Shown here: positions 3,052 to 53,021 of the stretch, one piece after another
Numbering within the stretch: position 1 is the stretch's first letter
How the letters are laid out: the number at the start of each line of letters is the position of its first letter
Assembly: GCA_028386065.3 (NCBI GenBank)
Contig: JAKUCV010007814.1
Location: forward strand, 101,057 to 165,056
DNA: 64,000 bases
Origin: Turnera subulata
Lineage: Eukaryota > Streptophyta > Magnoliopsida > Malpighiales > Passifloraceae
Direction of reading: 5' to 3'
Made by a program: the position numbers and the translations under genes
The notes under the pieces: generated by a model
Database searches by the model: none
Seen by the model: the letters and a program-made list of their open reading frames with translations, nothing else
Told to the model about the DNA's origin: nothing

Positions 3052-5074
3052 TGTAACGTCCTCAATTTTTCATAATTAAATTTATGAAATTTTGGAATTT
3101 TAATTCCAATATTACCCTCGAGATATTTTCAAGTTTTGGACAAGAAATTAATTCTTTTCTTGGAATTACTTCTTTTGTGTTGGTTTTGTTCGTTCTTAGG
3201 AGTTCGTTTGGTGGAAATTGGGTTTCTTATAGAGTTTAATTGAGTTTGAAGTGAAACACAAAGTGTATTGTAGTTTTGGTTAAAACTACGTAGTTTCGGG
3301 ATAGGCTAAGCATGAAACTCAAGCTTGTAGCGTGTTTTGACCAGGGGAGTATGGGTGTGTTGACCTGGGGAGTAGAAAGATGAAATAATGCCGTTTTGTG
3401 AACCAAAACGACACCTTTTGTGCACAGCCGAACCCTAGGTTTTGCCCTAGGTACAAAAACGTATTTTCTTCTCTCTCTCCTCACTTTTTCTCCTTGTTTC
3501 TTTCGCCGATGCCTCGTCCATCTCTCTCTTCGCCGTCGTCTCTCTCTTTTCTTCTCCACAAACTCGCACAACCGCCGCCCTCGCCTTTGGAGCAACCGCA
3601 CGCCGCTTCTCTTCCTTTGTGTTTCTCGTCGCGCCGCCGCCGCCGTAGCTAGTAAATCAGAGGAGAGCTCGAGGTGAGGGGCTCCAGTTTTGGATCGGGC
3701 ACGGGAAATCAAGGTCCAACAGGTAACCCGTCGTTCCTCTTCTCTGTTCCTGTTCTTCTCTTCCTTCCTTTGTCTTCGTACTGCTGTGGTTGTTAACCGA
3801 GTCTCTCTCTCTCTCTTTCTCACTCTCTCTCTCTCTATGGTGCTTGGGTGTGAATCGACGGTGGGTTTGTGTTGGTGATGGTCGTAGGTGTTATCGGGCT
3901 GCGTGGGTGGCCGTGGTGGTTGGTTGGGTCTGCTGCGGGTTATTTTGGTGTTCGCCGGAGCAGGTTTTTCTACAGATGGTGGTTCCGGCAGGCAGTGGTT
4001 GTTTATAGCCGGAGTCCGCTTGTTCTTCCCAGGCAATGGTGTTGTTTTTGCTCGGGTTATTGTGGAGTGGCGAGTTCGGGTTTGAACTGTTGGTGTGGGT
4101 TTGAATCCGTGGAGACAACTCCGGATTCTATGATCTCCGGTAAGAATTTCGCATCCTATTTTGGTCTCCGTTCATTGTTAATCCTTGATAGTGATGCTTT
4201 CAGTTGATTGAACATTGGTGTTTGGATTATTGGTTTGGCAGTTTATTGGAAGCGTGTTTCTGGGCTGCTTGCGTGTGTTCTCCGGCAAACTTGAGCACTG
4301 TTTCGGCGAGGTTTGACCGGAATCCGGCGAGAGGTTACTGTTCCAATGGGTAGGAGTTATTTTCCGGTGGGACGGAATTTTCTCGGCAATTCACGGTATT
4401 GCCTCGATATTGTATGATTTAAACCCATACATGGCATGTACTTCTATTATTCTTGGATTGGATTATGTAACTTTAATTATACCTAGTAAAGACCGAGAGC
4501 GGGGAGTGAGAGGCACGTGGCCGGTTTGTCCGACGCGGGTAGAACCTCTAGGACGGTGACTCGGGAGATAGACTAATTTGGGCCTTGGCCAGTAATAAAA
4601 TGTTTTGACCATTATAACATATGGACCTATTATAAGTGGACTCAAAGCCCAAGGACATATAAGGTTTATAGTGGGCTTAATGGCATGGGCTTTAGGCCCG
4701 AAATTGTAGTGAGTTAAGTAATGGATTGGTGGTATGGGCTTTAAGCCCGGGATTAGGACTTTGGACTTTGTGGGCTTGAGCCTATGTGTTAGAACTAATG
4801 CCTCCTTGTCTCATTCAGGTTTTAATATTGACTAACCGACAATGATTCAAAATGATGACACACCCGAAGCAAAAAGAAATCGATCAAAGAACACAACTCG
4901 AAATGAAGAAGAGCACAAGAATTGAAGAGCAAAACTAGAAGATTTAAGAATCTAATTGTAAAAGGTTAACTCTTAAATTCTTCCAAGATATTAGCTCAAG
5001 TCAAATTAGTTTTTTATCATGCATCAAATAGCATCTCTTTTATCAATCATAAAAAAATGACTTTCGAGCTCTAA

Positions 5075-5477
5075 AACATCAATGTTTGAGTTTACAACAT
5101 CGATGTTCCAGCCTTCAGATGATTTATCAAAAATTGGCAGAAGCTCAAAACATCGATGTTGGCATCCCAAACATCGATGTTCTCATGACCGATTGCTTTT
5201 CAATGTTATTGACAGAACTAAAAAACATCAATGTTCTACTGAGCAACATCGATGTTCTTTCAATCGTGGTTTTAAGATGTTTTGGGCAGAACTAAGAAAA
5301 CATCGATGTTCTAATTGACAACATCGATGTTCTTACACTTATGGTCTTTAAATTGTTTGGCAGAATTCCAAAAACATCGATGTTCTATTTGGAAACATCG
5401 ATGTTCCTGTGACCATTGGACCAAAAATTCATATTTATTGGCCAAACATCGATGTTGTGATTCTAAACATCGATGTT
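5075..5477. promoter_or_regulatory. Array of paired AACATCGATGTT palindromes in U3
   Basis: Twelve units start at 5075, 5096, 5149, 5170, 5224, 5245, 5299, 5320, 5373, 5394, 5445 and 5466. They form six pairs; within every pair the start-to-start distance is exactly 21 bp (9-bp linker), and pairs recur every 72-75 bp. Ten units are perfect; 5075 and 5224 read AACATCAATGTT. The linkers differ from pair to pair, so the conserved parts are the 12-mer and its spacing. The array ends about 100 bp before the TATA box. Direct observation is the spacing; a role as an upstream activating array is inferred. Confidence 0.85.
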
Positions 5478-5575
5478 GTGCCGTTATGTCAGAAACCTTC
5501 TACAATTTTTATTGCTTATCTTTTCAAAAGGTGTTTAAGGAATGTTTTCCCAACGGCTATGTTAGTTTTCAGACT

Positions 5576-5583
5576 TATAAATA
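5576..5583 (+). promoter_or_regulatory. TATA box of the 5' LTR
   Basis: TATAAATA lies 99 bp after the palindrome array and is preserved at 11006-11013 in the 3' LTR. It would place transcription start near 5605-5615. Confidence 0.65.
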
Positions 5584-6124
5584 GAGATGTCAAACCTCTC
5601 TTTTTAACACAATCAACTCCCCATACTTTAAGCATTCATTGTTACACATTCTTCCAAGTTTTTATGAGCTAATATCCTTGAGAATTGAGAGTTGCCTTAT
5701 AGTGCTTATCTTGTTGCTCAATATCCACTCTTTGAGAGAGCTTTTGTTTTGAGTGATATTAGTGTAGTCATACACCTTAAGGGAGGAATGTTTTCTTGTT
5801 GTAATTCATAGGAAGTGAGTTTTCTTTCTGTGTGAGAAGTCTTGAAGTGAGGTATCTTCAAGCAAGAGTGTTGAGGTTCGTGTGACTCGAATTCTTAGGT
5901 TGTAAACGGTTTGTTAAGCACCCGGAAGCTTAACGTAGACAGTAAAATCTTCGAGAGAGTCTCTCGGAGAACTGGACTAGCCACAATTTGTGTGTGAACC
6001 AGTATAAAAATTTGGTGTCTTCTTTCCTTCATTCTTTTAATTCCGCATTTATTCCTACAAATTTTTATTTCGTCCATAAAACACTATTCACCACCCTCTA
6101 GCGTAGGGCATATATTCTAACAAT

Positions 6125-6137
6125 TGGTAGTGGAGCC
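6125..6137 (+). other. Primer binding site
   Basis: TGGTAGTGGAGCC begins two bases after the LTR end. It resembles the usual plant initiator-Met site (TGGTATCAGAGC) but differs at three positions. The other retroelements in the window have TGGTAGCGGAGC at the same place. Confidence 0.7.
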
Positions 6138-6177
6138 TAACTCTCTGAAAGACTTAACCGTTTGAGAGGAATCATCC

Positions 6178-7796
6178 ATGGCTTTTTCAAGTAATTTGTA
6201 TGCAGAAATCGTTGAAGGACAATCCACCACTCGCCCACCTCTCTTCGATGGCACCAACTACACATATAGGAAAGAGAGGATGAGAATCTTCATCCAAGTC
6301 AACAACTTTGCTCTTTGGCAAATAATGAAGATCGGAGAGCAAATTCAAATGAAGAAAGTTGGTGAAACCACCGTGACAAAGACGGAGGCGGAATACAATG
6401 TTGAAGACATCAAGATGGTTAAAAACAATGCCAAGGCCATCAATATGCTCTATTGTGCAGTTAACCCAGATGATTACCGAAAATTCTCATGTTGCACTAC
6501 TGCCAAGGAGATGTGGGACAAGCTGGAAATTACCTATGAAGGAACCGATCAAGTCCGTAAGGCCAAAATCAATTCTCTCGCTGCCGAATATGAACTCTTT
6601 CGAATGAAGGAGAGCGAGAAGATCGAGGAGATGTTTGAACGATTTTCCAAAATCGTGAACAATCTTCATGCTCTGAAGAAAGTCTACTCCGATAGGGACT
6701 TGGTTAGAAAAGTCCTTAGAAGTCTCACTCCCGAATGGAGTTCCAAAGCCGACGCTATTTATGAAAACATCGGGACTTCAAACACGACCATTGACCGGCT
6801 TAGAGGTAATCTTTAACTTATGAATCCACTATTCTTAAACCCTCTTTGCAGGAACCAAAGAAGAAAGATATAGCTCTAAAAGCTTCCACTTCCAAGACCC
6901 AAGATCAGACCGAGATGGACTCCAGTGAGGATGATCAAGAATTCGGACCTATCATCCGAAAATTCCACAAGTTCATGCCAAAAAAAATTGAGAAGAAAGG
7001 AAGGAAGCAATCCGATCAGCCCAAGTGTTATGGGTGCGGAGAAGTTGGGCACATCAAACCTAAGTGCCCTAAGGCAAGGGAAGGCAAGAAAAAGAAGCCC
7101 TACAAGAAGCAACGAGCGTATATTTCTTGGGAAGGTGATTCCGGTGATGAGTCAACTGACAGCGAGGAAGAGGAGACGGTCAACCTTTGTCTCATGGCAC
7201 AGGAAGAACCGCCGGAAGAGGTAAGTACTTTTCTCTCAAATGAGGCTTTTACTTTTGAAGAATTACAAAATGCTTTTGAAGAACTCTATGGAGAATATGT
7301 TAGTGCCACTAAAATCAACAAAGATTTAAAGAAACAACTTATGATATTAGGAAAAGATGTTGAGAAGTTGTCTAGTGAAAACGAAAAACTTAAGGAAGAA
7401 AACAAGTTTTTCGGAAAAAGGAGTGCTAACAAACCCGAGAGCTCACCTAGGGAATGTTCATCATGTAACTCTTTAAAGGAACAAGTTGAAAAGCTTGAGA
7501 CCACCTTAAAGAAATTCAACATCCCTCATAAGAACTTGAGTTCTATTTTAGGTAACTTGCAATCGACTAAGCATCGACTAGGTTTTAAGAATGAACCTAA
7601 GAGGAAGAAATTGGAGTCTAAACTTAGAAAATCTAAGGCTCAAACAAAGGATAACAAAATCAGTAGAATAAACAAGTATAGACAACCTAGTAATTACTAT
7701 CAACCTAGGAGAATGCATAATCCGAATGTTATTTGTCATTATTGCAATAGAATAGGACATATTGCTCCTGTTTGTTTCACTAGGCATAGGCATTAG
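6178..7796 (+). pseudogene. gag: Copia gag (Sirevirus-like), one frameshift
   Basis: The gag polyprotein packages element RNA into cytoplasmic virus-like particles. The start is the ATG at 6178 (MAFSSNLYAEIVEG), 41 bases after the primer site. Residues 1-210 resemble the DUF4219/UBN2 gag region (PPLFDGTNYTYRKERM, TAKEMWDKLEITYEG). A one-base loss in a T run near 6812 stops the first frame. The second frame continues through YESTILKP, an acidic/basic hinge, a CCHC knuckle (CYGCGEVGHIKPKC) around 7026, a long lysine/glutamate-rich probable coiled coil, and a second CCHC knuckle (CHYCNRIGHIAPVC) near 7734. The stop at 7794-7796 interrupts what was once gag-pol. GTAATC...TTGCAG at the shift looks like an intron but is coding sequence in another frame. 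Confidence 0.8.
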
Positions 7797-8170
7797 GCAC
7801 AAGAAGAAGCTCACTACTATTATGCCTCTAACACTCAAGGACCCAAGATGGTTTGGGTACCAAAAACTCATTGAATTGTTTATGTAGCTATGCTTGAAGG
7901 CATCAAGTGTACTTTAGTACCTTGATAGCGGATGCTCCAAGCAAATGACCAGAGAAGCATCCAAGTTCTTATAAAGCATATAAAGCCTTTAATAAACGTA
8001 CTTTAACTATTGAGGAGTCCCCTCATGTAGTATTTGTGAAAAATGATACTCGCTTGGCAAGAAAGGATTTTTGTGATGATCTTGCAGGTACTATTGAGAA
8101 GATGTCATTGCACGACGAAGAAGAAGAGCAAGAAGGCCAAGATATCATAGTGTTTTCTAAATTTCTTTTG
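7797..8170 (+). pseudogene. Deleted pol remnant: protease start joined to post-integrase segment
   Basis: After the gag stop the frame still reads EEAHYYYASNTQGPKMVWVPKTH, then YLDSGCSKQMTREASKF (from 7918). The latter is the copia protease D-S-G neighbourhood. Within about 10 bases the sequence jumps to AFNKRTLTIEESPHVVF-like text and an acidic stretch, typical of the region after integrase. The protease body and integrase are thus lost in one deletion, and reverse transcriptase in another before 8190. Several stops are present. Confidence 0.65.
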
Positions 8171-8225
8171 CAGGTACCCCTCACTTAGGCCAAAAGATAG
8201 GGGGAATAAGACTGCAAAGAAAACA

Positions 8226-8516
8226 AACATCGATGTTGGTCAGAACAACATCGATGTTCTTTGAAGTTCAGCTTGCACCAAATTGGACCAGAGGCTGAAA
8301 ACATCGATGTTCAATGAAGTGAACTGCCATTAACAGAATGCCAAAAACATCGATGTTTCCTATCAAAACATCGATGTGCAGGGAGTAAATTCCATCCAGA
8401 GCCTTCTAAACATCGATGTTTCCAAACCAAACATCGATGTTCTGCCGTTGGAAGTCAAAAAAATTTCAATCCAGAGAGCATGAAACATCGATGTTGCCTG
8501 ACCAAACATCGATGTT
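8226..8516. promoter_or_regulatory. Internal AACATCGATGTT palindrome array upstream of the env-like ORF
   Basis: Units start at 8226, 8247, 8300, 8346, 8367, 8409, 8430, 8484 and 8505. Every visible pair is spaced exactly 21 bp; the partner expected at 8321 is degenerate. Other steps are 42, 46, 53 and 54 bp. A TATA-like run (TATATATA, from about 8591) follows about 75 bp after the last unit, echoing the LTR layout, and the env-like ORF begins after it. A purine tract (GATAGGGGGAATAAG, near 8190) precedes it. Function as an internal promoter module is inference. Confidence 0.75.
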
Positions 8517-8730
8517 TGACCGTTAATTTTCAAAAAATATATCCCTTAGAGGCTGATTTCAACACTCCAACAGCTCTATTTTGGCTTCCATATATATATT
8601 CATGCCTCCTTTATCATTTCCACACATTACATCCTTCACTTATTCTACTTCTACTCTCAACATTTCATTCTCCTACTCATTTCCTTTAAGTAAGGCAGGT
8701 GGAAAGAAAGCTTCGAAGGGGAAATCTCCC

Positions 8731-9932
8731 ATGAAGGAGAAACAATCAAAGAAAAGAGGAGGATCCTCAAGCTCAGCTCCTCAATTTGTTGTAGAAGGAA
8801 CTTCTGTTTGGTTCTCTTCCAAAATCGAGCTCAATCAATTTCAGACCATCTTCGCCAAACGGACAATTGCTCCTCCATGTTACCTTCCGGCCGATTACCT
8901 GAAAGAAAAGAAGTATAGGCAGATTGAAGCACATCTTTTGGAATCCTGATTGTGGGAGTTTGTGACTAGAAGGCACTTCCAATATTGTGCAGATCTCTTC
9001 CGAGCCTTCTACTCTACTCTCTGCCGAGACGGTGATGTTCTATATGCTCACGTCAATGGAGTGTCCATCACAATGACTTTGGAAGACTTCGGGACACTTT
9101 TCGAGCTGCCATACCAGGGTGAGGATATCTCTTCTTATGGAGGTGACCATTGGCTCACAAACCACGAAGTCACTCTTCTCTATGAGCTAGGCTTCACGAA
9201 TATTGTCCGCAACCGTTTCGGAAGGCCAACAATCCACTCCATCAACCCAGAATACAGAGTCATCTTCTACCTTCTCACCCGGGTGATTAAACCACGAGTT
9301 GGTAATCACACGACAATGTCCGTCATGGATGAGAAGGTTCTTCATGCTATCATCCACCATACACCGATCAACTGGGCACGATTCATGCTTATGCATATGT
9401 CAGAATATGCATCCCCATTCAACGAGCATCCACTACCATATGCTTTCTTGGTGTTGGATATTTTGATGAATGCAGGTGTTGATGACCGGAAAGGCGCACA
9501 GGTTCCTCACTCCAAGGTTTGGGCGATAAGTGATGCCACATTCCGAGCCGGACCATCCAAGGAAGCACAAAGGCCAGCCCGAGCAGAGGGTTCTCGAGCA
9601 TCCACTTCTCGCGGCAGAACCTCTGCAGCCACACTTGAATCCATCGCCGACTCCATCCACAACCTACAATTAAGCGTCACCAGCATAAGTCGAGCAATCA
9701 AGAGGATTGACACGAAAGTTCAAGACAGGGCCATCACCTTCGGTCTTACTTTGCACGTGTCAACTACGAGCCTCCACCATATCTCAAGACACTTCATGGC
9801 TTCAACTTTGAAGATGAGGGTGATGATGATGATGAGACCTTTGATGAGAATGTGGACGGTGATCCGATGGATGTGGAGGGTGAAGAGGAAGATGACGATA
9901 ATGATGAAGAGGAAGAAGACCTTGCTGGGTAG
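8731..9932 (+). pseudogene. Env-like ORF of Sirevirus type (putative plant transposon protein domain)
   Basis: From the first ATG in frame (8731; similar lysine-rich sequence is readable upstream, so the true start may be earlier or spliced) the product begins with a basic Lys/Ser stretch. It continues SSKIELNQFQTIFAKRTIAP, YLKEKKYRQIEAHLLES, a TGA stop at 8947-8949, then LWEFVTRRHFQYCADLFRAF and GVSITMTLEDFGTLFELPY. This resembles plant proteins annotated 'putative plant transposon protein', found in the third ORF of Sireviruses. A Ser/Arg linker and a short heptad-like helix follow. A frameshift near 9735 moves the acidic tail (FEDEGDDDDETFDEN, DDDNDEEEEDLAG) to another frame ending at 9932. 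I see no signal peptide or obvious membrane span, so 'envelope' is a positional label only. Two lesions make it a pseudogene. Confidence 0.7.
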
Positions 9933-10085
9933 CAATTCGATGACGCTGACGGGAGCCCAAGCCCAACTTTCTAAACCTTTATCTCTTGTTATTTTTATGT
10001 CTCTTCTAGCTTGATCTTTAATTATTAGACGATTAATGCCTCTTCAGTTTGATTTTGTCTCTTTTGTTTATCTTTTTGCTAATGC

Positions 10086-10217
10086 CAAAAGGGGGAAGAT
10101 TAAAGTATATGCATCAAGTTAGGGGGAATAAACAAGTTAGGGAGAATTAACCTCATTTTGAATCCATAAACTTGGCATATACACTCAGTTGTTTGTCATT
10201 ATCAAAAAGGGAGAAAT
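10086..10217 (+). other. Repeated polypurine tracts before the 3' LTR
   Basis: AAAAGGGGGAAGATTAAAG, GTTAGGGGGAATAAAC, GTTAGGGAGAATTAAC and AAAAAGGGAGAAAT follow one another, the last ending at the LTR start (10218). The final tract is the likely plus-strand primer; several copies of this motif are a Sirevirus habit. Confidence 0.65.
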
Positions 10218-11568
10218 TGTTAGAACTAATGCCTCCTTGTCTTATACAGGAATTGATATTGACAAACCGACAATGATTCAAAATGATGACACACCCGAAG
10301 CAAAAAGAAATCGATCAAAGAACACAACTTGAAATGAAAAAGAGCACAAGAATTGAAGAGCAAAACTAGAAGATTTAAGAATCTAATTGTAAAAGGTTAA
10401 CTCTTAAATTCTTCCAAGATATTAGCTCAAGTCAAATCAGTTTTTTATCATGCATCAAAGAGCATCTCTTTTATCAATCATAAAAAATGACTTTCGAGCT
10501 CTAAAACATCGATGTTTGAGTTTATAACATCGATGTTCCAGCCTTCAGATGATTTATCAAAAATTGGCAGAAGCTCAAAACATCAATGCTGGCATCCCAA
10601 ACATCGAGGCTCTCATGACCAATTGCTTTGCAATATTTTTGACAGAACTAAAAAACATCGATGTTCTACTGAACAACATCGATGTTCTTTCAATCGTGGT
10701 TTTAAGATGTTTTGGGCAGAACTAAGAAAACATCGATGTTCTCATTAACAACATCGATGTTCTTACACTTATGGTCTTTAAATTGTTTGGCAGAATTCCA
10801 AAAACATCGATGTTCTATTTGGAAACATCGATGCTCCTGTGACCGTTAGACCAAAAATTCATATTTACTGGCCAAACATCGATGTTGTGATTCTAAACAT
10901 CGATCTTGTGCCATTATGTCAGATACCTTTTACAACTTTTAATGCTTATCTTTTCAAAAGGTGTTTAAGGAATGTTTTCCCAACGTCTATGTTAGTTTTC
11001 AGACTTATAAATAAAGATGTTAAACCTCTCCTTTTAACACAATCAACTCTCCACTCTTTAAGCATTCATTGTTATACATTCTTCCAAGTTTTTATGAGCT
11101 AATATCCTTGAGAATTGAAAATTGCCTTATAGTGCTTATCTTGTTGCTCATTATCCACTCTTTGAGAGAGCTTTTATTTTGAGTGATATAAGTGTAGTCA
11201 TACATCTTAAGAGAGGATTGTTCTCCTGTTGTAATTCATAGGAAGTGAGTTTTCTTTCTATGTGAGAAGTCTTGAAGTGAGGTATCTTCAAGCAAGAGTG
11301 TTGAAGTTCGTGTGACAAAAATTTTCAGGTTGTAAACGGTTCGTTAAGCATCCGGAAGCTTAACGTTGATAGTGAAATTTTCGAGAGAGTCTCTCGGAGG
11401 ACTAGACTAGCCACAAGTTGTGTGTGAACCAGTATAAAAATTTGGTGTCTTCTTTCCTTCATTCTTTTAATTCCGCATTTGTTCTTGCAAATTTTCATTT
11501 CGTCCATAAAACGCTGTCCACCACCACGCTGTCCACCACCCCTCTAGCGTAGGGCATATATTCTAACA
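10218..11568 (+). repeat. 3' LTR of the Sirevirus-like element
   Basis: Counterpart of 4787-6122, including the palindrome array and a TATA box at 11006-11013. Near its 3' end it carries a small duplication of ACGCTGTCCACCACC not seen in the 5' copy. Confidence 0.9.
10505..10907. promoter_or_regulatory. Palindrome array in the 3' LTR
   Basis: Units start at 10505, 10526, 10579, 10600, 10654, 10675, 10729, 10750, 10803, 10824, 10875 and 10896. The 21-bp within-pair spacing is again invariant. Units at 10579, 10600, 10824 and 10896 carry substitutions (for example AACATCAATGCT and AACATCGAGGCT), while the two units mutated in the 5' LTR are perfect here. The ancestral LTR therefore had twelve perfect units. 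Confidence 0.85.
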
Positions 11569-13025
11569 CTATGAACCATAGGCCCGTGACTTGGAGATAT
11601 AGTTTTGGGAGTGGTAAGTGGACTAGTTGGGCTAGACTTTAACTCACGGTTGCATTGCACAAGCATGAATGTTTTTGTTTAGTTCTTTGTGTGATAGTGG
11701 TATCTATGTGTTTAGGCACAAGACATAAGTCGGGAGCAGCAGGATCTAGTGCTGGTCAGGCAGAGCGTCTTCATATCTGGGTGACTCTATAAGACTTATA
11801 TACTTGTATGCGAATACTTATTGGTATGGTTAGATAGTACTACTTGCTGAGTATGCTGCATGCTATTGACTGTGTTGTGTACTTGTTACTTATATGTTGG
11901 AATGCTATGCATGATGTTTATGAGCTGTATTGCCAGGTTAAACACTATGAGCTGTTATTGCCATGCTGTAATATGTGTTGTTTTGCTATATCATGTATAT
12001 TGTGAGCCTGAGGCTCTGTTTAAAGAAAACTCTGTAATGGTACACAACCTATTTATAACTCTGAGGAGCACTTAAACAAACTTCATAATTGGTATCATAA
12101 TATACCTGGGTAACAAACATTCTACTATGGGGCTATTGACCGGTAGCACTGAGTGGGAGAATGGGTACCCCTCGGGATTTGTGTTGGATAATAACATAGA
12201 GTTTTAGAGACGCTGCCTTGGGGATTAGATGGATGCGCCCCTTGGTTAGTTTAGTACTGAGAGCATCCCTTAGAGAGACGTCGGCCACCTGAGGTGTTTC
12301 TGTGGTTAGTTTTGTTTTGGATCTTATCCCTTCCAATGTGATTATATTTTGGGTTGAGCCCTGGACTGATCTGTCCCTACCGCGCCCGATGCACACAATG
12401 GAGGGCCCTTAATAATAAAAGCAATAAAGAATATAAACAGATAATTCACATAACTCTTATGTGTGTGGTATTTTGACACGTGTTGATCGTGTGTGTATAC
12501 TTGTGCTCGTGGGCTTACTCACCCTACGAGCCTGTCTTCGTGTGCCTGTATATTTGTCTTATATTGTACATTGAGTAGGCGACTCATATAAATCGCCACT
12601 ATGGTTTTACAGATCATTAGTAGAATGTTGACGGTCGCTCTTACCTCGAGTATCAGACTCTTTCATATCAGCAAGTAGCCGTGTTTCCTTCCTGGTGAAT
12701 CTATAGGGTTGACACTTCATATGTTCTACACTTGTCATTGACTTTGTTGTTGTTATTTTTTCGCTGCGTATTTTGCTGGGATACTGTTTTGGTTCCTGTG
12801 GATTTTGATCAGTTGTTATTCCGGTTGGTTTAACCGGGTATTACCTTGGCTAGTTAAGCCTGATTTATATTTGACTCTTTGTATCCTGATATTTATCTTT
12901 GGTTACTCTGAGATATTGAGTTGATGTTTTTACACAGAGTTTGACATCCCTGGACTTAAGGGTATTTTGGCCATTTTATAATTGTTTATGTTTTGTATTA
13001 TCGTTTTTGGGATGCGGTCGTTTCA

Positions 13026-16729: not shown

Positions 16730-17906
16730 GAGAATGAATATTCATACATTGGATGAATTGACCCCTGACAAGGATTCATGGATAATTCAAGTTAGGGTTT
16801 CAAGGATGTGGGAGTCTTTGAATACCAAATTACAAAATCTTCTTATCAGTTTAGATTTGGTTCTAATTGATTCAAATGTATGCTTATTTGTTTTTATTTT
16901 TTCCATTATTATTTAATTTTCACGAAATTTTTATTAAAAAAATGACGGTAATAATAATTTCCATTGGATTTTTTATTTTCTTTTATTTTTATTATATTTC
17001 CTTTACATTGTATTAGTCTTTTTAAATTTTCCAGTATTATGTACATTTTTATATTTTTTGTTTGTATTTTATTTGTTTTTTTCCTCATTTATAGTATATA
17101 TTTTTTCCCCTTCCATTACGTCTGTTTTTTTCCAGTATTATATAGTAAGATAGTTTGTCATTTTCAGAGTAAGATAGTTTGTCATTTTCTTTGACTTCAT
17201 TTTCTTTTAAATATTATTTTAAACATTTTTTTTGTTAATCACATTTCAGGAATGATAAGTATCAAGTTACTTTGTGGGGAGTTCAAGCAGAAATGTTTTC
17301 TAAGAAATTCTTAAATGATGAAACTGGTCCTTATGTTGTGATTTTTACGTCTTTATTAATGTTTCAGAGTATGTTTCTCTTTTTAATTTTTTTCTTTAAG
17401 AATAAATTCTTTTAAACTATTTTTCCACTTATATTTTTTACCTATTAATTTTTTGAATGCAGGGTCCTATACTTTATCATCAACTAATGCCACGAAATTC
17501 TACAGTAATTTGGATATACCAGAAGTGAAACAGAAATTAGAAAGGTTTGAATATTCACTTAATTTAAAATTTATTATTTTAATCATACATTAACTATAAT
17601 AAATTGCAGTTTGGGATCTTCAAGTGGCGATGTTCCAATTACACAAGTTGAATCACACAAATATGTTTCCTTTCAAGAACAGATGCTAGAAAACAGAAAG
17701 ACTACAAAACAAATTCAAGAGATGGCAAATGAGCCAATAGACGTTGAAGATCTTAAGGTTACATTACATGCAAAGATCAAAGAAGTACAGAATAGGTTTG
17801 GTTGGTGCTACTTTGCATGTCAAAACTGTTGGAAGAAAATAGATAGAGATGATCCATCAAAGTCCTGCTCGAGTTGTAATTCTAAGTGTGAATTACCTTC
17901 TATCAG
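16730..17906 (+). pseudogene. RPA70-like single-strand DNA-binding protein carried by the Helitron, exon remnants
   Basis: Four exon-like blocks with GT/AG edges: 16730-16877 (LDELTPDKDSWIIQVRVSRM, an OB-fold start), 17250-17368 (DKYQVTLWGVQAEMFSKKF, GPYVVIFTSLLMFQ), 17463-17544 (YTLSSTNATKFYSNLDIP) and 17610-17906. The last ends in a C-X2-C...C-X2-C zinc-finger pattern (CYFACQNCWKK, CSSCNSKC). Plant Helitrons often carry such RPA1-like genes; the protein is thought to coat displaced single strands during rolling-circle transposition. The open frame runs into the N gap directly after the zinc finger, so the 3' end is unknown. Introns are T-rich and short. It might be intact to the gap, but I cannot show it. 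Confidence 0.65.
16799..17145 (+). repeat. Direct repeat, first copy (second at ~19440-19790)
   Basis: Begins CAAGGATGTGGGAGTCTTTG and recurs after the helicase at about 19440 with the same exon (TTACAAAATCTTCTTATCAG) and the start of the following T-rich intron. The second copy has small differences and lacks the ATG-containing upstream part. It shows a partial tandem duplication of the RPA exon around the helicase segment. Confidence 0.75.
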
Positions 17907-41450: not shown

Positions 41451-44400
41451 ATGCCAAGAATGTGGAAGCCAGTGTTGTGGTGGATACCCCATGTTCTCTT
41501 CATGGCCTTTCTGGTGCCAACTCTGGCCAAGTACAAGCACATAAACCGAAAGATATTGCCCATCTTGGAGGAAACAAATAGCTATGCAGTTGTCTTTGAT
41601 GCTGGGAGTTCAGGTAGCAGGGTTCATGTCTTCTCATTCGATAGTAACCTTGATCTTGTTCCTGTAGAGGAAGGCTCAGATGAGTATGAGGTTTTCCTTC
41701 AGGTAGGACACACCCAAAATAACCCAAAAATAATAATAACAATAATAATACGTCTTTATTTGTTGTGTATCTTGGATGGAAAGTTAATTATTCAGCTTTG
41801 AAATTGTTAGTTTCCTTGGGTGCTGTTTTTAACTAACGGATAGGGGATTTTGCTTCTGTTTTGGTTGTGTTTTTAAATAGACAAAACCAGGCTTGAGTTC
41901 TTATGCAAGCGATCCACAAGCTGCAGCTGAGTCCCTTGAGCCTCTGCTTGTGAAAGCAGAAAATGCAGTGCCCGAGGCTTTGTGGTCCGAGACACCTGTC
42001 AGATTAGGAGTGAGTAAACCAAAATTAATTAACACTCACTTTTGCTTCTTCCTTTTTTTTTGGTTAATTAAACTGACGTTTGCTTTCTAAGCATCCTCAT
42101 AACCCTTTTCATTAATCCCTTCAAAAATGGTGCAGGCCACAGCCGGTTTGAGATCACTGGAGGGAAATGCATCGGCTCAGATTTTAGAGGCAGTATGATA
42201 CACATATTCATATACATATATATTCCATTTTATTAATTTCTTGTATTAACATGGTCTCCAATTATTGTATGCTTAATTAGAGTGATGTGACTTTGCTTTT
42301 TTTTTTTTTGGTGCTTCAAGGTCAGGGATCTATTCATGTATAACAGCACCCTAAAATATGAAGACGACAGTGTCTCTATCTTATCTGGCGCTCAAGAAGG
42401 GTCATATATGTGGGTATGTTCCTTGGTTATTTGAACTTTGAGGAAATATTGATAAATGACTAACTTCTGTTCTGGCTTTATTGTGAAAATCATGAATTGG
42501 AGAGTGGGTAAACATATATACATCTGCTATAATTTGTACCAAAGGTATAAAAACCAATACATTTAAAGATGATGTTAATAGATACTAAAACATAGATGAC
42601 GGTGTAAATGATCCAATTAACTTAGGCCACGAGTTGTCCACAATCTGCCAATAATGGTTAAAATCACTAACCTTGAGGTCTTTATGGGCCGAAACCCAAA
42701 GTGTCAGATAATAGACTAGCATTATACTTTATATGGACTATGGAGCACCTGTGTAGTGGGGAAAGTATTTGTGGTAAATTAAGTGTACGAAAGTGGACAG
42801 CTTTGACATTTTACTACCACAACTAAAGACAAAAGCTACTCCCATGTCACATCCTTCCATGTTGGAGTAATAAGATCGTCCATGGTTGTATGTAGAGCTG
42901 AAGTCTCCTGTTGGAGTTTCAGTCTCTCTTCCTCGTAAACAAGAAAAAAAAAAGGGTAATTCGAAATTAGTCTTTAACCATTAACTTAAATTTAAATTTT
43001 TGATTTTGATTAAGATAGCCACTCAGGCTGTAAGTATCTGGGCATGCAAATTTGACAATCAAACCGGCCAAGTCCAGCGGAAAGACCCGGAAACCTTGGA
43101 GGATCCAAGTGAAGCAACCAAACCGAACAACAAAATCGATCATACCTGAAACGGTTAGGATCTTTCACCTAACTGAAGAACCGAATCAGCTAGAGCCGGA
43201 AGAATATCCTGCTCCTCTACGGTATCCACACGAACCGTCAATCACCGGCCGGAATCGTTTCACGATTTCCAACCCCCGATATGGATTTTCGGGAGCTATA
43301 TGTGGTGTTTATGGTATCTCTTTCTTTCACAAAGAAGAGAGGAAGATGTGTGTGTGTTTCATACTCTGAAAAACTCAGAATTCAGAATACAAGAGAGAGT
43401 GAGAAGGGTCAAGAGTAATCTGATTACTCTACCCCCAATTAGTGCTAAGAGACAATGGGATAATGGCCAACATATTGGCCCATTATCTTTTATGATTATG
43501 TCTCCACATAACCATGTCTCCACTAATATACAAACACTTATCACAACACTAATTTGGTCCAATAATTCTGTCAATAACTAAACCAAACCAGCCCAAAACG
43601 ACCCTGGTCCAACCACGGTCCAACCATGGTCCAACCACACACGGTCGAACCTGGTCCAACCACGGCTCAACCACCTGCTCGAATCAACGATTCTATGTGT
43701 GTGACCCTGTAGGCACTTGTAACGTTCGGCAATAATTGTAAAATCTCATTTTACAATTATAAGCAAAGAGCGGCGTCTAGCAACACATCATTGCTACCCG
43801 AACGACAAGATCAATACTGATTCTATATGCCTCGGAACATGTCATCGTCTTTTCCTCCCATTATCAAGATTAAACCGAGACATGGAAAACGTCAATCTCG
43901 TATATGTTTAATCTTAGTTTCTTGATCCCCGAGTTAACTGTGTAAAACGGATCTTAATGATATCACCATATCATATAATCCGAGCATGACCATGCATTTA
44001 CAGTTCAACTCTATCAAGAGGCCCATCTGATAATATACCCGTTATATGGGTCGGACGAATCCCATCTTGACCAATCAAAACCCACTACACATTTATGATA
44101 TACCTAATGATTACCCTTAAGTCCACCCAGTTACGGATGATTAGGAATAATATCAAAGTATATGGCTTACATGTTGGGAACCTTGATGATCTCAGGTCTA
44201 AGGACAATACATATAAGAACCACTAATGACAATCATATAACGTTCCATGTAGGGTTCTTATGTGGGTTGGTCCAGTCCACAAGTTCTCTAACTTGTACCC
44301 ATATGTAGAATTAATATCTCATATAATTTTCAACACACGCTAGTCTTAATTTATTATTACAACCCATCCATAATAATAATCGACTAGGGACATTTTAAGA

Positions 44401-47400
44401 ATACAAAGTATTCTAGGGTTATAAATATGTGCATGCAATTTTCTCATAATCATATTTATTGGAATAACCTCAATATTTATACATGACTGATACAATCATC
44501 CATTGATTTGGCTTTTGGGCATATTACTAACAATCTCCCACTTGCACTAATGCCAATCAACCATGTATCTAATACCAATGGATGCGCAATGACCATCATG
44601 CTTCTGTTGTGTGAGCGGCTTAGTCAAGGGATCTGCTACATTGTTCTCAGAAGGAACTCTACACAGCCTGACATCGCCTCTATCTATGATCTCTCTAATA
44701 AGATGATAGCATCGGAGTATATGTTTGGATCTCTGGTGGTATCTAGGCTCTTGAGCCTGTGCGATTGTCCCATTATTGTCACATTAGAGCTCAATCGGAC
44801 TCTCAATACTAGGAACCACTCCAAGTTCAGTTACGAACTTCTTAATCCAAACAGCCTCTTTCGCCGCATCTGAGGCAGCAATGTACTCAGCCTCGGTTGT
44901 AGAGTCTGCAACTGTCTCTTGCTTTGAACTCTTCCAACATACAGCACCACCTCCAAGACAAAACACATAACCTGATTGCGATCTGAAGTCATCCCTGTCT
45001 GTTTGGAAGCTAGCATCTGTGTAACCCTTTACAACAAGCTCATCAATGCTTCCATACACAAAGAATGCATCCTTAGTCCTTCTCAAGTACTTAAGGATGT
45101 TCTTAACCGCTGTCCAGTGACTCTCACCGGGATCAGATTCATATCTGCTTGTGACACTCAAAGCATAAGCGACATCCGATCGAGTACATAGCATGGCATA
45201 CATGATAGATCCTATTGCCGAAGCATAAGGGATCTTACTCATCCGCTCTCTCTCCTTTGATGTACTAGGACATTGATTCTTAGAGAGAGATACGCCATGT
45301 GACATAGGCAAGAATCCTTTCTTGGAATCTTGCATGCTAAACCTCTTTAGCACCTTGTCAATATACGTACTCTGACTTAGCCCGAGAAACCTTTTGGATC
45401 TATCTCTGTAGATCTTTATACCTAACACATATGCAGCTTCTCCTAAGTCCTTGATCGAGAAATTCTTTCCCAACCAAGTCTTTACAGACTGTAGCGTCGG
45501 AATATCATTCCCAATGAGTAGAATGTCGTCAACATACAACAACAAGAAAACAACAGTGCTCCCACTAACCTTTTTGTAAACACATGGTTCATCTTCATTC
45601 TTACTGAAACCAAACTCTTTGATTACTTCATTAAAACGAAGATTCCAACTCCTAGAAGCTTGCTTCAACCCATAGATGGATCTTTGCTACTTGCATACCG
45701 TATTAGCATTCTCTAGATCGACAAAACCTTCAGGTTGTGTCATGTACACATCCTCTAAAAGATTTCCATTTAGGAAAGCGGTTTTGACATCCATCTGCCA
45801 TATCTCATAATCATGGTATGCCGCTATTGCCAACAGAATCCGGATAGATTTAACCATGGCAACTGGTGAGAAAGTTTCATCATAGTCTATACCATGAACT
45901 TGTTTGAAACCTTTCGCAACCAATCGCCCTTTATAGGTAATCACATTACCATCCATGTCGGTCTTTTTCTTAAAGACCCATTTGCACCCTATGGGTTTTA
46001 CCCCTTCGGGTGGATCAATCAAGGTCCATACCTTGTTTTCATACATGGATTCCATTTCCGAATTCATGGCTTTTAGCCACTTCTTGGAGTCTGGACCCGT
46101 AATGGCCTGCTGATAGGAAGTGGGCTCATCCTCATCTATGAGCATCACATCTCCAGTATGAGTCATAAGAAATCCATATCTCTCAGGCTCATTCCGAATC
46201 CTATCCGACCTACATGGTCCATGTGTTATAGGTACAGGATTCTCATCCACAACATCTTGTGGTTCCTATCCTTGTTCCATCTCAGCCTCTAGATCTCGAA
46301 CTTCTTCGAGTTCTATTTTTCTCCTACTTATTCCTGTAGAAATAAATTCTCTTTCTAGAAAAATAACAGTCCGAGCAACAAACACTTTGTGGTCGGTGGG
46401 ATTATAGAAGTAATACCCTTTTGTTTCCTTAGGGTATCCTCCAAAGAGGCACTTCTCGGATTGAGGGCCGAGTTTATTTGATGCTTCACGTCTCACGTAA
46501 GCCTCACAACCCCAAATCCTCATAAAAGACAAATTGGGACGCTTCCCGGTCCATATCTCATATGGTGTCTTTTCAACCGATTTCGATGGAATACGGTTAA
46601 GTGTAAAAGCAGCACTCAATAATGCATGTCCCCAAAATGAAGAAGGAAGGTCAGCTTGACTCATCATAGAACGAACCATGTCTAACAAAGTTCTGTTCCT
46701 CCTTTCGGACACACCATTCCATTGAGGTGTTCCTGGTGGAGTAAGTTGTGATACTATACCACAATCCTTTAGATGATCAAGAAATTCTCGGCTTAAGTAT
46801 TCTCCTCCTCGATCAGATCGAAGCATTTTAATACTTTTACCGAGTTGATTCTGTACTTCATTCTTGAATTCTTTGAACTTTTCAAAGGATTCTGACTTAT
46901 GTCTCATTAGACACACATAGCCATATCTACTGTAATCATCAGTAAATATAATGAAGTATTGAAAACCACCTCTAGCCTGTGTAGACATAGGTCCGCATAC
47001 ATCAGAATGTATAAGACCTAATAAGTCCGAAGCTCTTTCTCCTTTACCAGTAAAGGGAGCTTTCGTCATTTTGCCTAATAAGCATGACTCACATGTCTCA
47101 AATGATTCGAAATCAAATGAGTCTAAAAATCCATCTTTAAGGAGTTTAGCAATACGAGTCTCGTTTATATGGCCCAAACGACAATGCCAAAGGTAGGTTT
47201 CATTAGAATCGTTCATTCTAACCTTCTTCCTATTAACGTTATAGATTGGCGTTTCTAGGTTTAGAACATACAAACCATTGCTCAAATATGCACCACCATA
47301 ATAAATATCATTGAAATAAATAGAACAACATTTATTCTTTATTACAAATGAAAAGTCTTTCTTGTCCAGACAAGAAACAGAAATCAAATTTCTGCTTATG

Positions 47401-50400
47401 GTAGGAACATAATAACAATCGTCCAGTTCTAAAACCAAACCACTCGGTAAAGATAGATAGTAAGTCCCTACGGCTAATGCAGCAACTCTTGCTCCATTTA
47501 TAATGCGTAGGTCTATCTCACCCTTCTCCAATCTCCTACTCTTTCTTAGTTCCTGCACATTTACACAAATGTGAGAACCACATCCGGTATCTAATACCCA
47601 TGATGCAGAGATAGAGATATTAGCTTCTATAACAAAAATACCTGAAGTGGAAGTCTCACTTCCCTTCTTCTTTACCTCTTCAAGGCAAACAGGGCAGTTG
47701 CACTTCCAATGGCTCAATTTGTTGCAATGGAAACAATGTCCTTCCTTTACAATACCACCCTTGGGTTTCAGCACGTGGTCACAAGAAGATGCATATGCAC
47801 CAAACTTTCTGGCACATTTCTTCTTCTTGTTGAACTTTGCTTTACCCTTTTCTTTTGCCTTTTCCAATCATCAAAATGTTGGATTTGTTTGCCCTCATTT
47901 GTTGCTCAGCTGTTCCCAACATGTTAAGCAACTTAGACAACGATTTGTCAAGATGATTCATATTGTAGTTCATGACAAATTGGTTGTAACTGTTCGGCAA
48001 TGATTGCAGGACTAGATCAACCGCCAACTCCTTTTGCAAAGAAAAACCAAGACCCTCAAGGCTCTCAATGTAACCAATCATTTTGAGCACATGAGGTCTC
48101 ACGGATGATGACTCTGCCATCCTGCATTGGACCAATGCCTTAGAGGTCTCAAACCTCTCATGCCTTGCTTGCTCATCAAAGGGCATCTTTAAGTGTTCGA
48201 TCATATCGAACGCCCCCATGTAATCATGTTTCTTCTGAAGCCCAGATTCCATGGCTATTAGAATAAGACATGCGACATCCAATGCATCATCAAGATGCTT
48301 CTTGTAAGCATCCCTTTCTGCCCTAGGAGCATTAGGCGCCGGTTCAATCGCAACAGGCCCTTCAAGGACATACAGCTTCTTTTCTTGTTTGAGGACAATC
48401 CTCAAATTGCGATACCACTTTAGAAAATTATTCCCATTCAGCTTTTCCTTCTCAAGGACCGATCGCAATGATAGTGTACCTGTGTTTTGTGCCATGGTAG
48501 CTCTACAACAAAGATCAACTCACACAAATAAGAGTCATGTATACATAAATCATTTAACAAGGAATTCTATTAAATGATGCTCCTACTGTGAAAACAAAAT
48601 AATCATGAGTAGGCCAAATCCATATTTCACTACAATATAAGTCAGCTTTGGCTGATCGCCTACATCATAGCTATTTAGGTAGACAACTCTTGTCAATTAC
48701 ATCTCATGTAACTCTTGGGTAGTTGAGCGAACAACACTTGTTCTTATCTATCTCATAGACATTACTCAACTCCTTGCCTCTAAGTCCTTAATCCTATTAA
48801 GATGACGTAGTTAAGTCCAAACCCACAATAAGCAGTTCAGATATTACAATTATCCAGTCGCACCTTGCTAGGATAAACATAGGCACCTTGCTTTGGCAAA
48901 ACCTACCTAATGTTGATCTAAGCAATGATGAGTGCTTATCATGGAAGGCAACTAAGGACTTAATATTTATACCAACAATTGTTTCCATGCATAACAATTA
49001 TGCCATCACATCTTGCTAGGATAAACATTGGCACCTTGCTTTGGCAAAACCTACCAAATGTTGATCTAAGCAATGATGAATACTTGTCAACAATTGTATC
49101 CATACATGTCATGCATGTAATTCACAAATTATATATCTCATATACAATAACAATGCATTATATGCAATATACGCCGCTACGCAGAGGTAGCACGGCGGTC
49201 CCGCTAGCCGGTTAGCGGGCGGGGTCAAGGGGCAGCGCCCTTGCCAAGGACATCGGCCCAAAAATTATATGAACATCGATGTTTTGAGAATCTGATTCTC
49301 CTAACAACCTGGCAATGCTCATGGACATCGATGTCCTATCCTGAACATCGATGTCATTTGGCCTCTGGAACACAAGAAAATCGATGTCTAGACCTCAACA
49401 TCGATGTTCAACACTTGAACATCGATGTTTGATTCTTGAACATCGATGTTGGAAGGTTCTGAAAGTCCAAAGTTTCATGGCAGTACTTTTAAACATCGAT
49501 GTATAGGCCCTAAGCATCGATGTTTCTGTCCTGAACATCGATGTTCCCTACTGAACATCGATGTTTCAAACTTCTGCCAAGGCCAAAACTCATGTGAACA
49601 TCGATGTTCAACCATTGAACATCGATGTTCTAGCCTCGATGCACTAGAACGACCATCGTTCCTTACGAAAACCGACAATCGATTTTCCTTTTGTCGAACC
49701 CATTCGACTTACTGCTAAGAACCTCTTGATTGATATCACATACCAATCAAGTGCTTGTTGTCAAAACCCTTTTGACACAACAAACCTCAACATATATCGC
49801 ATATACAAAAATGAATTCAACATATCACATATACCAAAATGAATTCATCATATCACACACATTTAGATGAACATATCACACATATGCACAACTAAATTCG
49901 GTTTAGAGCTTCAAAAGGGGCTCCGCTACCACTGTAAGTATCCGGGCATGCAAACTTGACAAACAAGTGCAGCAGAAAGACCCGGAAACCATGGAGGATC
50001 CAAGTGAAGCAACCAAACCGAACAACAAAATTGATCATACCTGAAACGGTTAGAATCTTTCACCTAACTGAAGAACCGAATCAGTTAGAGCCGGAAGAAT
50101 ATCCTGCTCCTCTACGGTATCCACACGAACCGTCAATCATTGGCCGGAATCGTCTCACGATCTCCAACCCCCGAGCACTCCCGAACCGTGGTGCTAGCTA
50201 CGGATTTCCGGGAGCTATATGTGGTGCTTATGGTATCTCTTTTTTTCACAAAGAAGAGAAGAAAATGTGTGTGTGTTTCTTACTCTGAAAAACTCAGAAT
50301 TCAGAATACAAGAGAGAGTGAGAAGGGTCAAGAGTAATCTGATTACTCTACCCCCAATTAGTGCTAAGAGACAATGGGATAACGGCCAACATATTGGCCC

Positions 50401-53021
50401 ATTATCTTTTATGATTATGTCTCCACATAACCATGTCTCCACTAATGTACAAACACTCATCACAGCACTAATTTGGTCCAATAATTCTGTCAATAACTGA
50501 ACCAAACCAGCCCAAAACGACCCTGGTCTAACCACGGTCCAACCACACACGGTCGAACCTGGTCCAACCACGGTTCAACCACCTGCTCGAATCAACGATT
50601 CTATGTGTGTGACCCTGTAGGCACTTGTAACGTTCGGCAATAATTGTAAAATCTCATTTTACAATTATAAGCAAAGAGCGGCGTCTAGCAACACATCATT
50701 GCTACCCGAACGACAAGATCAGTACTGATTCTATATGCCTCGGAACATGTCATCGCCCTTTCGTCCCATTATCAAGATTAAACCGAAACATGGAAAACAT
50801 CAATCTCGTATATGTTTAATCTTAGTTTCTTGATCCCCGAGTTAACTGTGTAAAACGGATCCTAATGATATCACCATATCATATAATCCGAGCATGGCCA
50901 TGCATTTACAGTTCAACTCTATCAGGAGGCCCATCTGATAATATACCCGTTATATGGGTCGGACGAATCCCATCTTGACCAATCAAAACCCACTACACAT
51001 TTATGATATACCCAATGATTACCCTTAATTCCACCTAGTTACGGATGACTAGGAATAATATCAAAGTATATGACTTACATGTTGGGAACCTTGATGATCT
51101 CAGGTCTAAGGACAATACATATAAGAACCACTAATGCCAATCATATAACGTTCCATGTAGGGTTCTTATGTGGGTCGGTCCAGTCCACAAGTTCTCTAAC
51201 TTGTACCCGTATGTAGAATTAATTTCTCATATAATTCTCAACACACGCTAGTCTTAATTTATTATTACAACCCATCCATAATAATAATCGACTAGGGACA
51301 TTTTAAGAATACAAAGTATTCTAAGATTATAAATGTGTGCAAGCGATTATCTCATAATCATATTTATTGGAATAACCTCAATGTTTATACATGACTCAAA
51401 CAATCATCGATTGATTTGGCTTTTGGGCATATTACTAACACAGACATGATAGCCAAGTTATTATGATTCACGGTTGCGTGTTCAAGAACAAAATAATAAA
51501 ACTCAAAACCAATGCTAGTGCCTCATAGCTTTAAGTTTTTCTTAAAAGAATTTTCATAGTATAAATAATTTTAACAATTTTTGTGCTTCTCCCACCGTAT
51601 AGTATACAACCTTTTTCACTTTTGCCGACACTAATTTCTTATAAACTGACATGTTCTTTTCTTTTTTTAATTTGTGACATCTTTTTGTAGATAGCAATAA
51701 ATTACCTGCTGGGAAATGTGGGGAACGAGTATGATGATACAGTTGGAATTGTTGATCTTGGCGGTGGATCTGTTCAGATGGCATATGCCATCACTGAGTC
51801 TGCTGCTGCCATTGCTCCAAATGCACCTGATGGAGATGATCCATATGTAGTCAAGCTACTCCTAAAGAAATCCAACTATCACATTTATGTTCACAGGTAA
51901 CAACAATTAGCTAACTGATTGATTTGTGATGCTTCGTTGGTAATATTTCCAGGCCCTTCTTTTGTTGATTTGTGAGGCATATGAAATATGTTTTCCTGAA
52001 AAATTTACCAGAATGTACTGCGCCGAAATATATATGTGTTAATTTTGCATGTTGTGGTTTCTCCGGCTGCATCAGTTACTTGAGTTATGGACTTTTCGCT
52101 GCTCGAGCACAGATTTTGAAGGTTTCTGGAAATGACTCTACCAATCCATGCATCTTAGATGGTTACGAAGGTGATTAATTTTTATTTCACAGTTTTTGCC
52201 TGGCAAGGCAAGCACATAATTGCTAGTTGGGCTGCAAATGAAATGATAATGTTTGTTTGTCCTTTGTGTTGTTGCATTAGGCACTTACACTTATGGAGAC
52301 ACGGTATACAAGGTCTCAGCTTCTCCATCTGGCCCAAACTTGAAAAGATGCAGAGAAGCAATCCTTGAGGTCCTCAATGTTGATGAAACGTGTGCGTATG
52401 ATAATTGCACATTCAATGGAGTTTGGAATGGTGGAGGTGGAAATGGACAGAAGAACTTATATCTGGGTTCACTATTCTATGACAAGCCAGCTCAGGTACC
52501 AGTCACGCTTTTAACTTGCTTTGCTAGAGCTCGAGCTTATTCCTTTAGGCTAAACAGAGTAATGGGGGGTGTTTTGCAGGTTGGCTTCATTAATTCCACA
52601 GCAACTTCTGCAAAAGTTATTCCCAAAGATTTCAAGGATGCAGCTAAAATTCTATGCAGCACCACATTTGAGGACGCAGAATCCAAATATCCAGACGTGC
52701 TAGACCCAGCTTTCATTTGCATGGACCTTATCTACGAATATACTCTGCTTGTAGATGGATTCGGTAAGACATTCTCATATTTAAGTGCTTTTTTTTTTGT
52801 AAGAAAAGGGCTAAAATTCTATGTCCTGGAATCCATAACCCAAGTTGATTTGATCTATGTCCTTACTGCTCATCCTTTCAATCTTAATTTCTCGTCCAGG
52901 GCTTCAACCAACTCAAGAGATTACGGTGGTTACGAGTATCGAGTACCAGAATTCTCTTATTGAAGCTGCTTGGCCCCTGGGTAGTGCTTTAGAGGTTGTG
53001 TCATCAGTGGAATCCTTCTAA
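41451..53021 (+). CDS. Apyrase (GDA1/CD39 nucleoside-triphosphate diphosphatase)
   Basis: Plant apyrases hydrolyse NTPs and NDPs to NMP in the Golgi lumen or extracellularly and limit extracellular ATP. Nine exons: 41451-41702, 41881-42009, 42136-42192, 42321-42413, 51691-51896, 52076-52170, 52281-52495, 52580-52763 and 52900-53021; all junctions are GT-AG and in phase, giving 450 residues, a normal length. An N-terminal hydrophobic anchor ([19 protein letters not shown]) is followed by the apyrase conserved regions: [66 protein letters not shown] and, near the C-terminus, [15 protein letters not shown]. Conserved-region residues binding phosphate are present. Intron 4 is 9.3 kb because an antisense copia element (43029-51440) sits in it. 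No lesion is seen in the coding exons; correct splicing across the large intron is the main uncertainty. Confidence 0.92.
43029..44532 (-). repeat. 3' LTR of the intronic copia element
   Basis: Close match of 49933-51440. It abuts a purine tract on the minus strand (AAGTGGGAGATTG, plus-strand 44531-44544). Confidence 0.9.
44547..47867 (-). pseudogene. pol: Copia pol polyprotein (PR-IN-RT-RH)
   Basis: Read on the minus strand. Zinc knuckle [15 protein letters not shown]; protease [16 protein letters not shown] (D-T-G); GAG-pre-integrase [20 protein letters not shown]; integrase [38 protein letters not shown] and [55 protein letters not shown] and [14 protein letters not shown] (YVDD); RNase [21 protein letters not shown] and, after a stop at 44784-44786, [20 protein letters not shown] up to the natural end at 44547. 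In-frame stops end at 46266, 45687 and 44784. The N-terminal frame is offset from gag by a one-base shift near 47862. Except for these lesions every catalytic motif is recognisable. Confidence 0.9.
47842..48495 (-). pseudogene. gag: Copia gag
   Basis: A 217-codon frame on the minus strand from ATG at 48495: [60 protein letters not shown]. This is the UBN2-type copia gag, with the nucleocapsid knuckle now in the pol frame because of a one-base shift near 47862 in an A-rich stretch. It would form the particle shell of the intact element. Confidence 0.85.
48846..49088. repeat. Imperfect tandem duplication in the copia leader
   Basis: TTGCTAGGATAAACAT(A/T)GGC, CACCTTGCTTTGGCAAAACC and TGTTGATCTAAGCAATGATG occur twice with a 148-bp offset (first from 48846, second from 48994). 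Each copy also has TTTGGCAAA near its centre, and CAACAATTGT(T/A)TCCAT occurs at 48974 and 49089. Confidence 0.75.
49171..49250. other. GC-rich, hairpin-prone block in the copia leader
   Basis: An abrupt GC-rich island in AT-rich leader: ACGCCGCTACGCAG, CCCGCTAGCCGGTTAGCGGG (stem-loop) and AAGGGGCAGCGCCCTTG (stem-loop). It lies between the tandem duplication and the palindrome array. Might be an RNA packaging or translation element; that is a guess. Confidence 0.5.
49272..49629. promoter_or_regulatory. AACATCGATGTT palindrome array in the copia leader
   Basis: Units start at 49272, 49324 (GACATCGATGTC), 49344, 49377, 49397, 49418, 49439, 49492, 49513, 49534, 49554, 49597 and 49618. Neighbouring starts are 20 or 21 bp apart in eight of twelve steps; the others are 52, 33, 53 and 43 bp, close to whole helical turns. 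The linkers are unlike those in the Sirevirus-like LTR. The array is downstream of the LTR and primer site in transcript order, so here it is transcribed as leader RNA. Confidence 0.8.
49919..49931 (-). other. Primer binding site of the intronic copia element
   Basis: On the minus strand TGGTAGCGGAGCC follows the 5' LTR end by one base. Confidence 0.65.
49933..51440 (-). repeat. 5' LTR of the intronic copia element
   Basis: Pairs with 43029-44532. The two differ by scattered substitutions and a ~25-bp indel (the segment with GAGCACTCCCGAACCG near 50175 is absent from the other copy). Confidence 0.9.

Follow-up and report, generated by a model that had tools for sequence, protein, structure and literature searches.

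Rows of helix-phased palindromes in the control regions of Turnera subulata retrotransposons, possible docking arrays for a dimeric protein

What keeps a row of short palindromes in register upstream of a retrotransposon promoter? The row in question lies in a 64,000-nucleotide window (the whole stretch of DNA analysed here) of the Turnera subulata assembly GCA_028386065.3, contig JAKUCV010007814.1, positions 101,057–165,056 of the forward strand, and it is part of an element whose features are as follows.

4787..11568, + strand, Sirevirus-like Copia element without pol, from its LTR pair, target duplication, and gag and zinc-knuckle domains
4787..6122, + strand, 5′ LTR, from self-comparison
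5075..5477, + strand, U3 array of 12 palindromes, 10 of them perfect, with spacings 21/53/21/54/21/54/21/53/21/51/21
5549..5559, + strand, MSA (MYB3R)-like box CCCAACGGCTA between the array and the TATA box, with an AACGG core
5576..5583, + strand, predicted TATA box TATAAATA of the LTR promoter, from sequence
6178..7796, + strand, gag reading frames in two pieces, from domain matches (Retrotran_gag_2, zf-CCHC)
8226..8516, + strand, internal array of 9 sites (8 perfect) upstream of the extra gene, with spacings 21/53/46/21/42/21/54/21
8591..8597, + strand, TATATAT, 74 bp past the internal array, from sequence
8950..10014, + strand, extra gene in the envelope position, from a domain match (PF20167, Transposase_32)
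10218..11568, + strand, 3′ LTR, from self-comparison
10505..10907, + strand, 3′ LTR array of 12 sites (8 perfect), with the same spacings as in the 5′ LTR

The two LTRs are 93% identical by self-comparison, and CTATG target duplications flank the element at 4782–4786 and 11569–11573. Because only ~430 bp lie between the end of gag (7796) and the start of the internal array (8226), there is no room for pol, and in this copy the upstream part of the extra gene's frame is interrupted.

The sites of the U3 array start at 5075, 5096, 5149, 5170, 5224, 5245, 5299, 5320, 5373, 5394, 5445 and 5466, and ten of them are the 12-bp palindrome AACATCGATGTT. A first reading made from the sequence alone had claimed twelve perfect copies; the number stands, the perfection does not, since the sites at 5075 and 5224 are AACATCAATGTT with one mismatch each, and no position of the twelve is imperfect in both LTRs. 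Its spacings of 21 bp within pairs and 51–54 bp between them agree with our measurements (21 bp in 6/6 pairs, and steps of 53, 54, 54, 53 and 51 bp from the second site to the next pair), as does its placement of the array in U3 just upstream of the TATA box (the array ends at 5477, and TATAAATA lies 98 bp downstream). Modulo 10.56 bp, the period fitted below, the twelve starts fall within an arc of ~2.5 bp. The window as a whole contains 50 matches to the palindrome at up to two mismatches (shuffles gave a mean of 4.08 and a maximum of 9); a two-mismatch site at 10982 is likely a chance match and was excluded from the 12-site count of the 3′ LTR array while being retained in the spacing statistics. 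The U3 location holds for the array at 5075–5477 but not as an LTR-only rule, since an array also precedes the extra gene (with one off-phase step, 46 bp) and another occupies the leader of the window's second Copia element.

43028..44532 and 49932..51440, − strand, LTRs of the second Copia element, from self-comparison, with gag, int and RT domains
49272..49629, − strand, 13-site array, 8 of the sites perfect, in this element's leader, between its 5′ LTR and gag

The exact palindrome occurs 76,101 times in the 518.7-Mb assembly, where its reversed-word control occurs 63 times and ~58 copies are expected from the base composition of the window; a palindrome of the same composition, ACAATCGATTGT, is present 18 times and its own reversed control 41 times. 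Exact pairs at 21 bp number 20,153 genome-wide (reversed control, 11). Among wider spacings, pairs at whole turns number 2,294 at 31–33 bp, 5,834 at 42–44 bp and 16,209 at 51–53 bp (reversed controls 0, 5 and 5), versus 36 at 36–38 bp and 111 at 46–48 bp in the half-turn classes (reversed controls 0 and 0), so that these three-spacing counts give a ~53- to 162-fold excess of whole-turn over neighbouring half-turn classes, in tallies that include many copies per young family and are not independent events. Helical phase is thus a property of the genome-wide population and not only of the window; copies lacking the 21-bp phase, which the sequence-only reading had named as evidence against itself, were looked for genome-wide and no loss of phase was found.

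The rule itself was measured on 55 arrays with four or more sites (up to two mismatches allowed) from 52 sources, comprising 702 sites of which 566 are perfect. Locus L001 and twenty further loci are the first listed places of the exact word and of the 21-bp pair, and are biased to such pairs; thirty others come from a search for PF20167 and were chosen blind to spacing; L002–L004 overlap L001 and were removed before counting. Grouping by shared 14-mers with the sites masked gave 24 families, each represented by its array with the most sites. Their 297 adjacent steps comprise 164 at 20–22 bp, 7 at 29–33 bp, 29 at 39–46 bp, 87 at 51–55 bp and 10 others, and the 45 steps that fall outside 19–23 and 51–55 bp are phased too (R 0.62, Rayleigh p ~3e-8, on an assumption of independence that is only partly true). 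Fitting gives a period of 10.56 bp (10.50–10.58 by bootstrap over the 24 families) and R 0.69, compared to at most 0.10 in 1000 nulls with steps jittered by as much as 5 bp; this period is closer to that of free B-DNA than to that of nucleosomal DNA. Phase declines with distance, from R 0.82 below 60 bp to ~0.25–0.27 past 250 bp, as neighbour-to-neighbour contacts would predict. The wider rule is therefore whole turns (2, 3, 4, 5 and 7), and the 21/~52 pairing that had been taken for the pattern is present as one case of it. Part of the phase is inherited, the 24 families being of older common ancestry.

In the sampled arrays the inner positions of the sites carry 1.5–2 bits and the outermost as little as 1.2, versus at most 0.46 bits in linkers and flanks except for 0.79 at a single position flanking the 20-bp pairs, which bears out the earlier impression that linkers vary while sites are kept. 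Comparison of the 5′ and 3′ LTRs of the first element gave differences at 8/144 site positions, 11/259 array-linker positions and 56/932 positions in the rest of the LTR, and CpG changes at 3/12 places in sites, 2/3 in linkers and 5/19 elsewhere, with no sign in this comparison of special CpG protection at the sites. Since these differences are similar, the sites decay after insertion much like other sequence; it is thus apparently in the transposing lineage, not at the window locus, that the sites are constrained, which argues for a role in the element's own life cycle.

Arrays are found in three settings, namely in the LTR U3, upstream of a PF20167 gene, and between LTR and gag as in the second element (a setting common to L039 and in part to L051). 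Fifteen of the 30 PF20167 loci, from four families, have an array upstream of that gene, and TATAWAW follows 54–78 bp downstream in 14 of these 15, the exception (L024) containing 413 N. A further 14 arrays lie downstream of PF20167. For 11 of them fewer than 100 bp remain between the array and the edge of the fetched sequence; of the remaining three, L031 is followed by a TATA word at 96 bp, and L018 and L032 show no TATAWAW in the 184 bp that follow. When the 22 arrays of L001 and L035–L054 were scanned for TATAWAW over 300 bp in both orientations, the word lay at 41–97 bp in nine (at 96–97 bp in L001, L040, L044, L046 and L052) and at 243 and 288 bp in two, and was absent within 300 bp on either side in 11, some of which lie close to where the fetched sequence stops. 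Of the 20 loci taken from the listing of exact words and 21-bp pairs, nine showed no match to the window flanks that were tested, and the array-to-TATA distance, checked by eye, follows no clear helical rule.

Our best reading, to which we give a probability of roughly 0.6, is that each row is a docking array along one face of the helix for a putative dimeric protein, which would bind cooperatively and control two promoters, that of the LTR and that of the extra gene. The arrays would be multi-site cis-regulatory elements in which a protein that reads the 12-bp dyad as a dimer occupies each palindrome, and adjacent dimers would touch where whole-turn spacing aligns their sites along one face of free B-DNA, the commonest layout being a two-turn pair that recurs at intervals of about seven turns. 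Where the bound array stands close upstream of the TATA box, as in the LTR and extra-gene settings, it would activate the promoter or shield it from silencing. We infer such binding as follows: the site is a palindrome, so its reader should be symmetric and probably dimeric; the spacing is in whole turns at the pitch of free DNA, so adjacent readers would meet, and could cooperate, on one face; and the arrays precede TATA boxes in the U3 and PF20167-upstream settings, so promoter control, perhaps activation, is the probable outcome. The sequence data here fit activation as well as resistance to silencing, and either a host protein or one made by the element may serve as the reader. The arrays with no TATA word nearby, the leader array downstream of its LTR, the one 46-bp step, the partly inherited phase and the nine loci that match no tested window flank all speak against the docking-array reading.

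Could the phase instead be a by-product of inherited tandem duplication, in which a ~74-bp two-site unit was simply copied? TRF does report units of 74–75 bp (2.2–3.2 copies, 78–81% matches including the sites) in both window LTR arrays, and linkers are more alike within an array (median similarity 0.44; 0.31–0.65 in the window 3′ LTR array) than long linkers are between families (median 0.38, versus 0.35 when shuffled); from these units and similarities we conclude that each array arose in part by duplication of such units, after which linkers drifted while sites and phase held. As the whole explanation, however, duplication is quite improbable: sites are near-perfect while linkers randomise, spacings of three and four turns are common while the half-turn classes counted are nearly absent genome-wide, and the genome counts suggest free gain and loss of linker, never at half turns. 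The sequence-only reading had set a tandem 75-bp duplication with equally conserved linkers against its own proposal; the unit and some linker likeness are there, but the linkers are far less conserved than the sites. Rotational nucleosome positioning, with which a pair-to-pair distance of about half a nucleosome would agree, is very hard to credit, since R falls to 0.47 at a period of 10.2 bp, so that nucleosomal pitch is disfavoured, and since positioning would not require a near-perfect 12-bp word. Much the same small probability attaches to hairpins in RNA or single-stranded DNA (paired palindromes forming an inverted repeat with a 9-nt loop) and to 21-nt small-RNA phasing. Any two sites are complementary, and for 5/51 mutated positions of the left site the partner has a match (p 0.009), but all of these are outermost bases (5/28), and 0/23 changes at core positions are compensated; over all 55 arrays, with both sites of each pair counted, compensation is 16/156, and both sites of a pair are mutated together 18 times versus 11.5 expected. 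The 31–33 and 51–53 bp steps are not multiples of 21, which rejects 21-nt phasing, and a 10.56-bp period indicates a DNA duplex.

A factor made by the element, PF20167 or another product, might bind the palindromes in trans and counter silencing, as VANC does for VANDAL transposons. This is unlikely, though it has points in its favour: arrays are present in 17 of the 30 fetched PF20167 loci, a TATA word follows the array in nearly all of the PF20167-upstream cases, VANC proteins offer a precedent by binding short motifs in noncoding tandem-repeat arrays (PMC5735166), and palindromes differ between Sireviruses (PMC2829016). Against it, 13 of the 30 loci have no array, and 12 of these 13 have no other palindrome repeated at least three times (the remaining one, L005, has one gapped palindrome with 6-bp arms, three times); the second element bears an array, yet PF20167 is absent among its three tested ORFs (at least 200 aa); and a PDB search at E up to 1 gave no sequence relative of the PF20167 protein. 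A broader proposal, that one palindrome code is read by an element-made cooperative one-faced assembly (possibly of the envelope-position protein) and shared across retrotransposon lineages as an anti-silencing or activation platform, we consider distinctly unlikely; if true, the so-called envelope gene of these elements would encode a DNA-binding regulator. More generally, a binder made by the element may account for the purpose of the envelope-position gene.

Short boxes are also repeated in the U3 of the tobacco Tnt1 and Tto1 LTRs, where they reportedly serve as activators; there they differ from the present arrays in being few, and to our knowledge they have no comparable phasing. The layout seen here is known from the repeated motifs (RMs) of Sireviruses, dyads that number 8 to 32 per element and lie in the LTR and before ENV (Bousios et al. 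2010, PMC2829016). In both cases many copies of a dyad motif precede the TATA box within the LTR, and further copies precede the envelope gene; our first element has 12 + 9 + 12 sites where RMs have at least eight, one cluster lies shortly upstream of TATAAATA, and a second precedes the envelope-position gene, as in half of the PF20167 loci. The differences are that 12 of the 13 RMs have a CGG-CCG core whereas AACATCGATGTT has an ATCGAT core, that a helical spacing rule is present here and absent from the RM description in the parts of PMC2829016 consulted, and that here another Copia element also has an array, in its leader. In Sireviruses a CpG island is bounded by RMs (PMC2829016); here the CpG observed/expected ratio is 0.96 in the array versus 0.71 in the LTR, and GC is just 0.352. 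The Tnd-1 RM, ACAATCGATTGT, also without a CGG-CCG core, has the ATCGAT centre and the same base composition, with 8 LTR copies (PMC2829016, Table 3), but its outer bases are unlike ours and it is the word found only 18 times in the Turnera subulata genome.

Sirevirus signals in the first element are mixed. The 5′ junction CA/ATTGG is present; in place of the primer-binding site TATCAGAGC there is TAGTGGAGC (6/9 bases); compared to the polypurine tract AGGGGGAG followed by AT/TG, the terminal AAAAGGGAGAAAT/TG deviates, and PPT-like copies AGGGGGAA occur at 8199, 10090 and 10121 (A-ended PPT octamers are reported for Tnd-1 and ToRTL1). Near the LTR end lies CACCACCC, a candidate for the Sirevirus C-rich signal ~21 bp from that end. 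We thus call the element Sirevirus-like by its layout and make no claim of genus membership. Its PF20167 protein has relatives in Turnera (P0001, 65% identity across half the query) and in Cuscuta campestris, and the domain is related to Athila ORF1 (PMC11728184). Several of the Cuscuta campestris proteins have both PF14223 (gag) and PF20167, which suggests that gag plus PF20167 without pol may be a recurrent non-autonomous form.

VANC target arrays of VANDAL elements resemble ours in that a short motif is multiplied in noncoding parts of the transposon and varies by family, and differ in that the 9-base VANC21 motif, YAGTATTAY, is not palindromic and its binder is encoded by a DNA transposon (PMC5735166 and PMC10398659). 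In the open-licence literature we found no report, by title or abstract start, of AACATCGATGTT in plant retrotransposons or of helically spaced palindromic arrays in LTR U3 regions, no retrotransposon report by title for ACATCGATGT in plants, and no reports that link the MSA element and MYB3R to retrotransposons or describe an ATCGAT palindrome as a plant transcription factor site. What is new here is the motif, the phasing and the scale. Bousios et al. left RM function open and called for promoter-reporter tests (PMC2829016). The strict spacing rule points to a protein whose copies bind next to each other along one face of free DNA, and rows of helix-phased identical palindromes in the control regions of many retrotransposons strongly suggest a landing strip for a putative DNA-binding protein, for which the ~76,000 genomic sites are a resource for ChIP or accessibility mapping.

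Other words recur in the long linkers of the sampled arrays. YCYAACGGYYA, which we take to be the consensus of an MSA/MYB3R-like box, is found in 10/24 families, and such boxes in linkers and before the TATA box hint at possible G2/M-phase expression. AACGG is the core of MSA-like motifs (PMC10905365). GGCAGA recurs in 14/24 families and CTGCCAA in 12/24, far above shuffles; a second factor or old shared ancestry is possible. Elsewhere in the window, an N-masked stretch breaks the ORF region at 17611–18457 beside a frame that looks helicase-like by eye, and the reading frames at 31330–33027, Gypsy-type in appearance by eye only, contain a 51-bp tandem duplication at 31431–31539.
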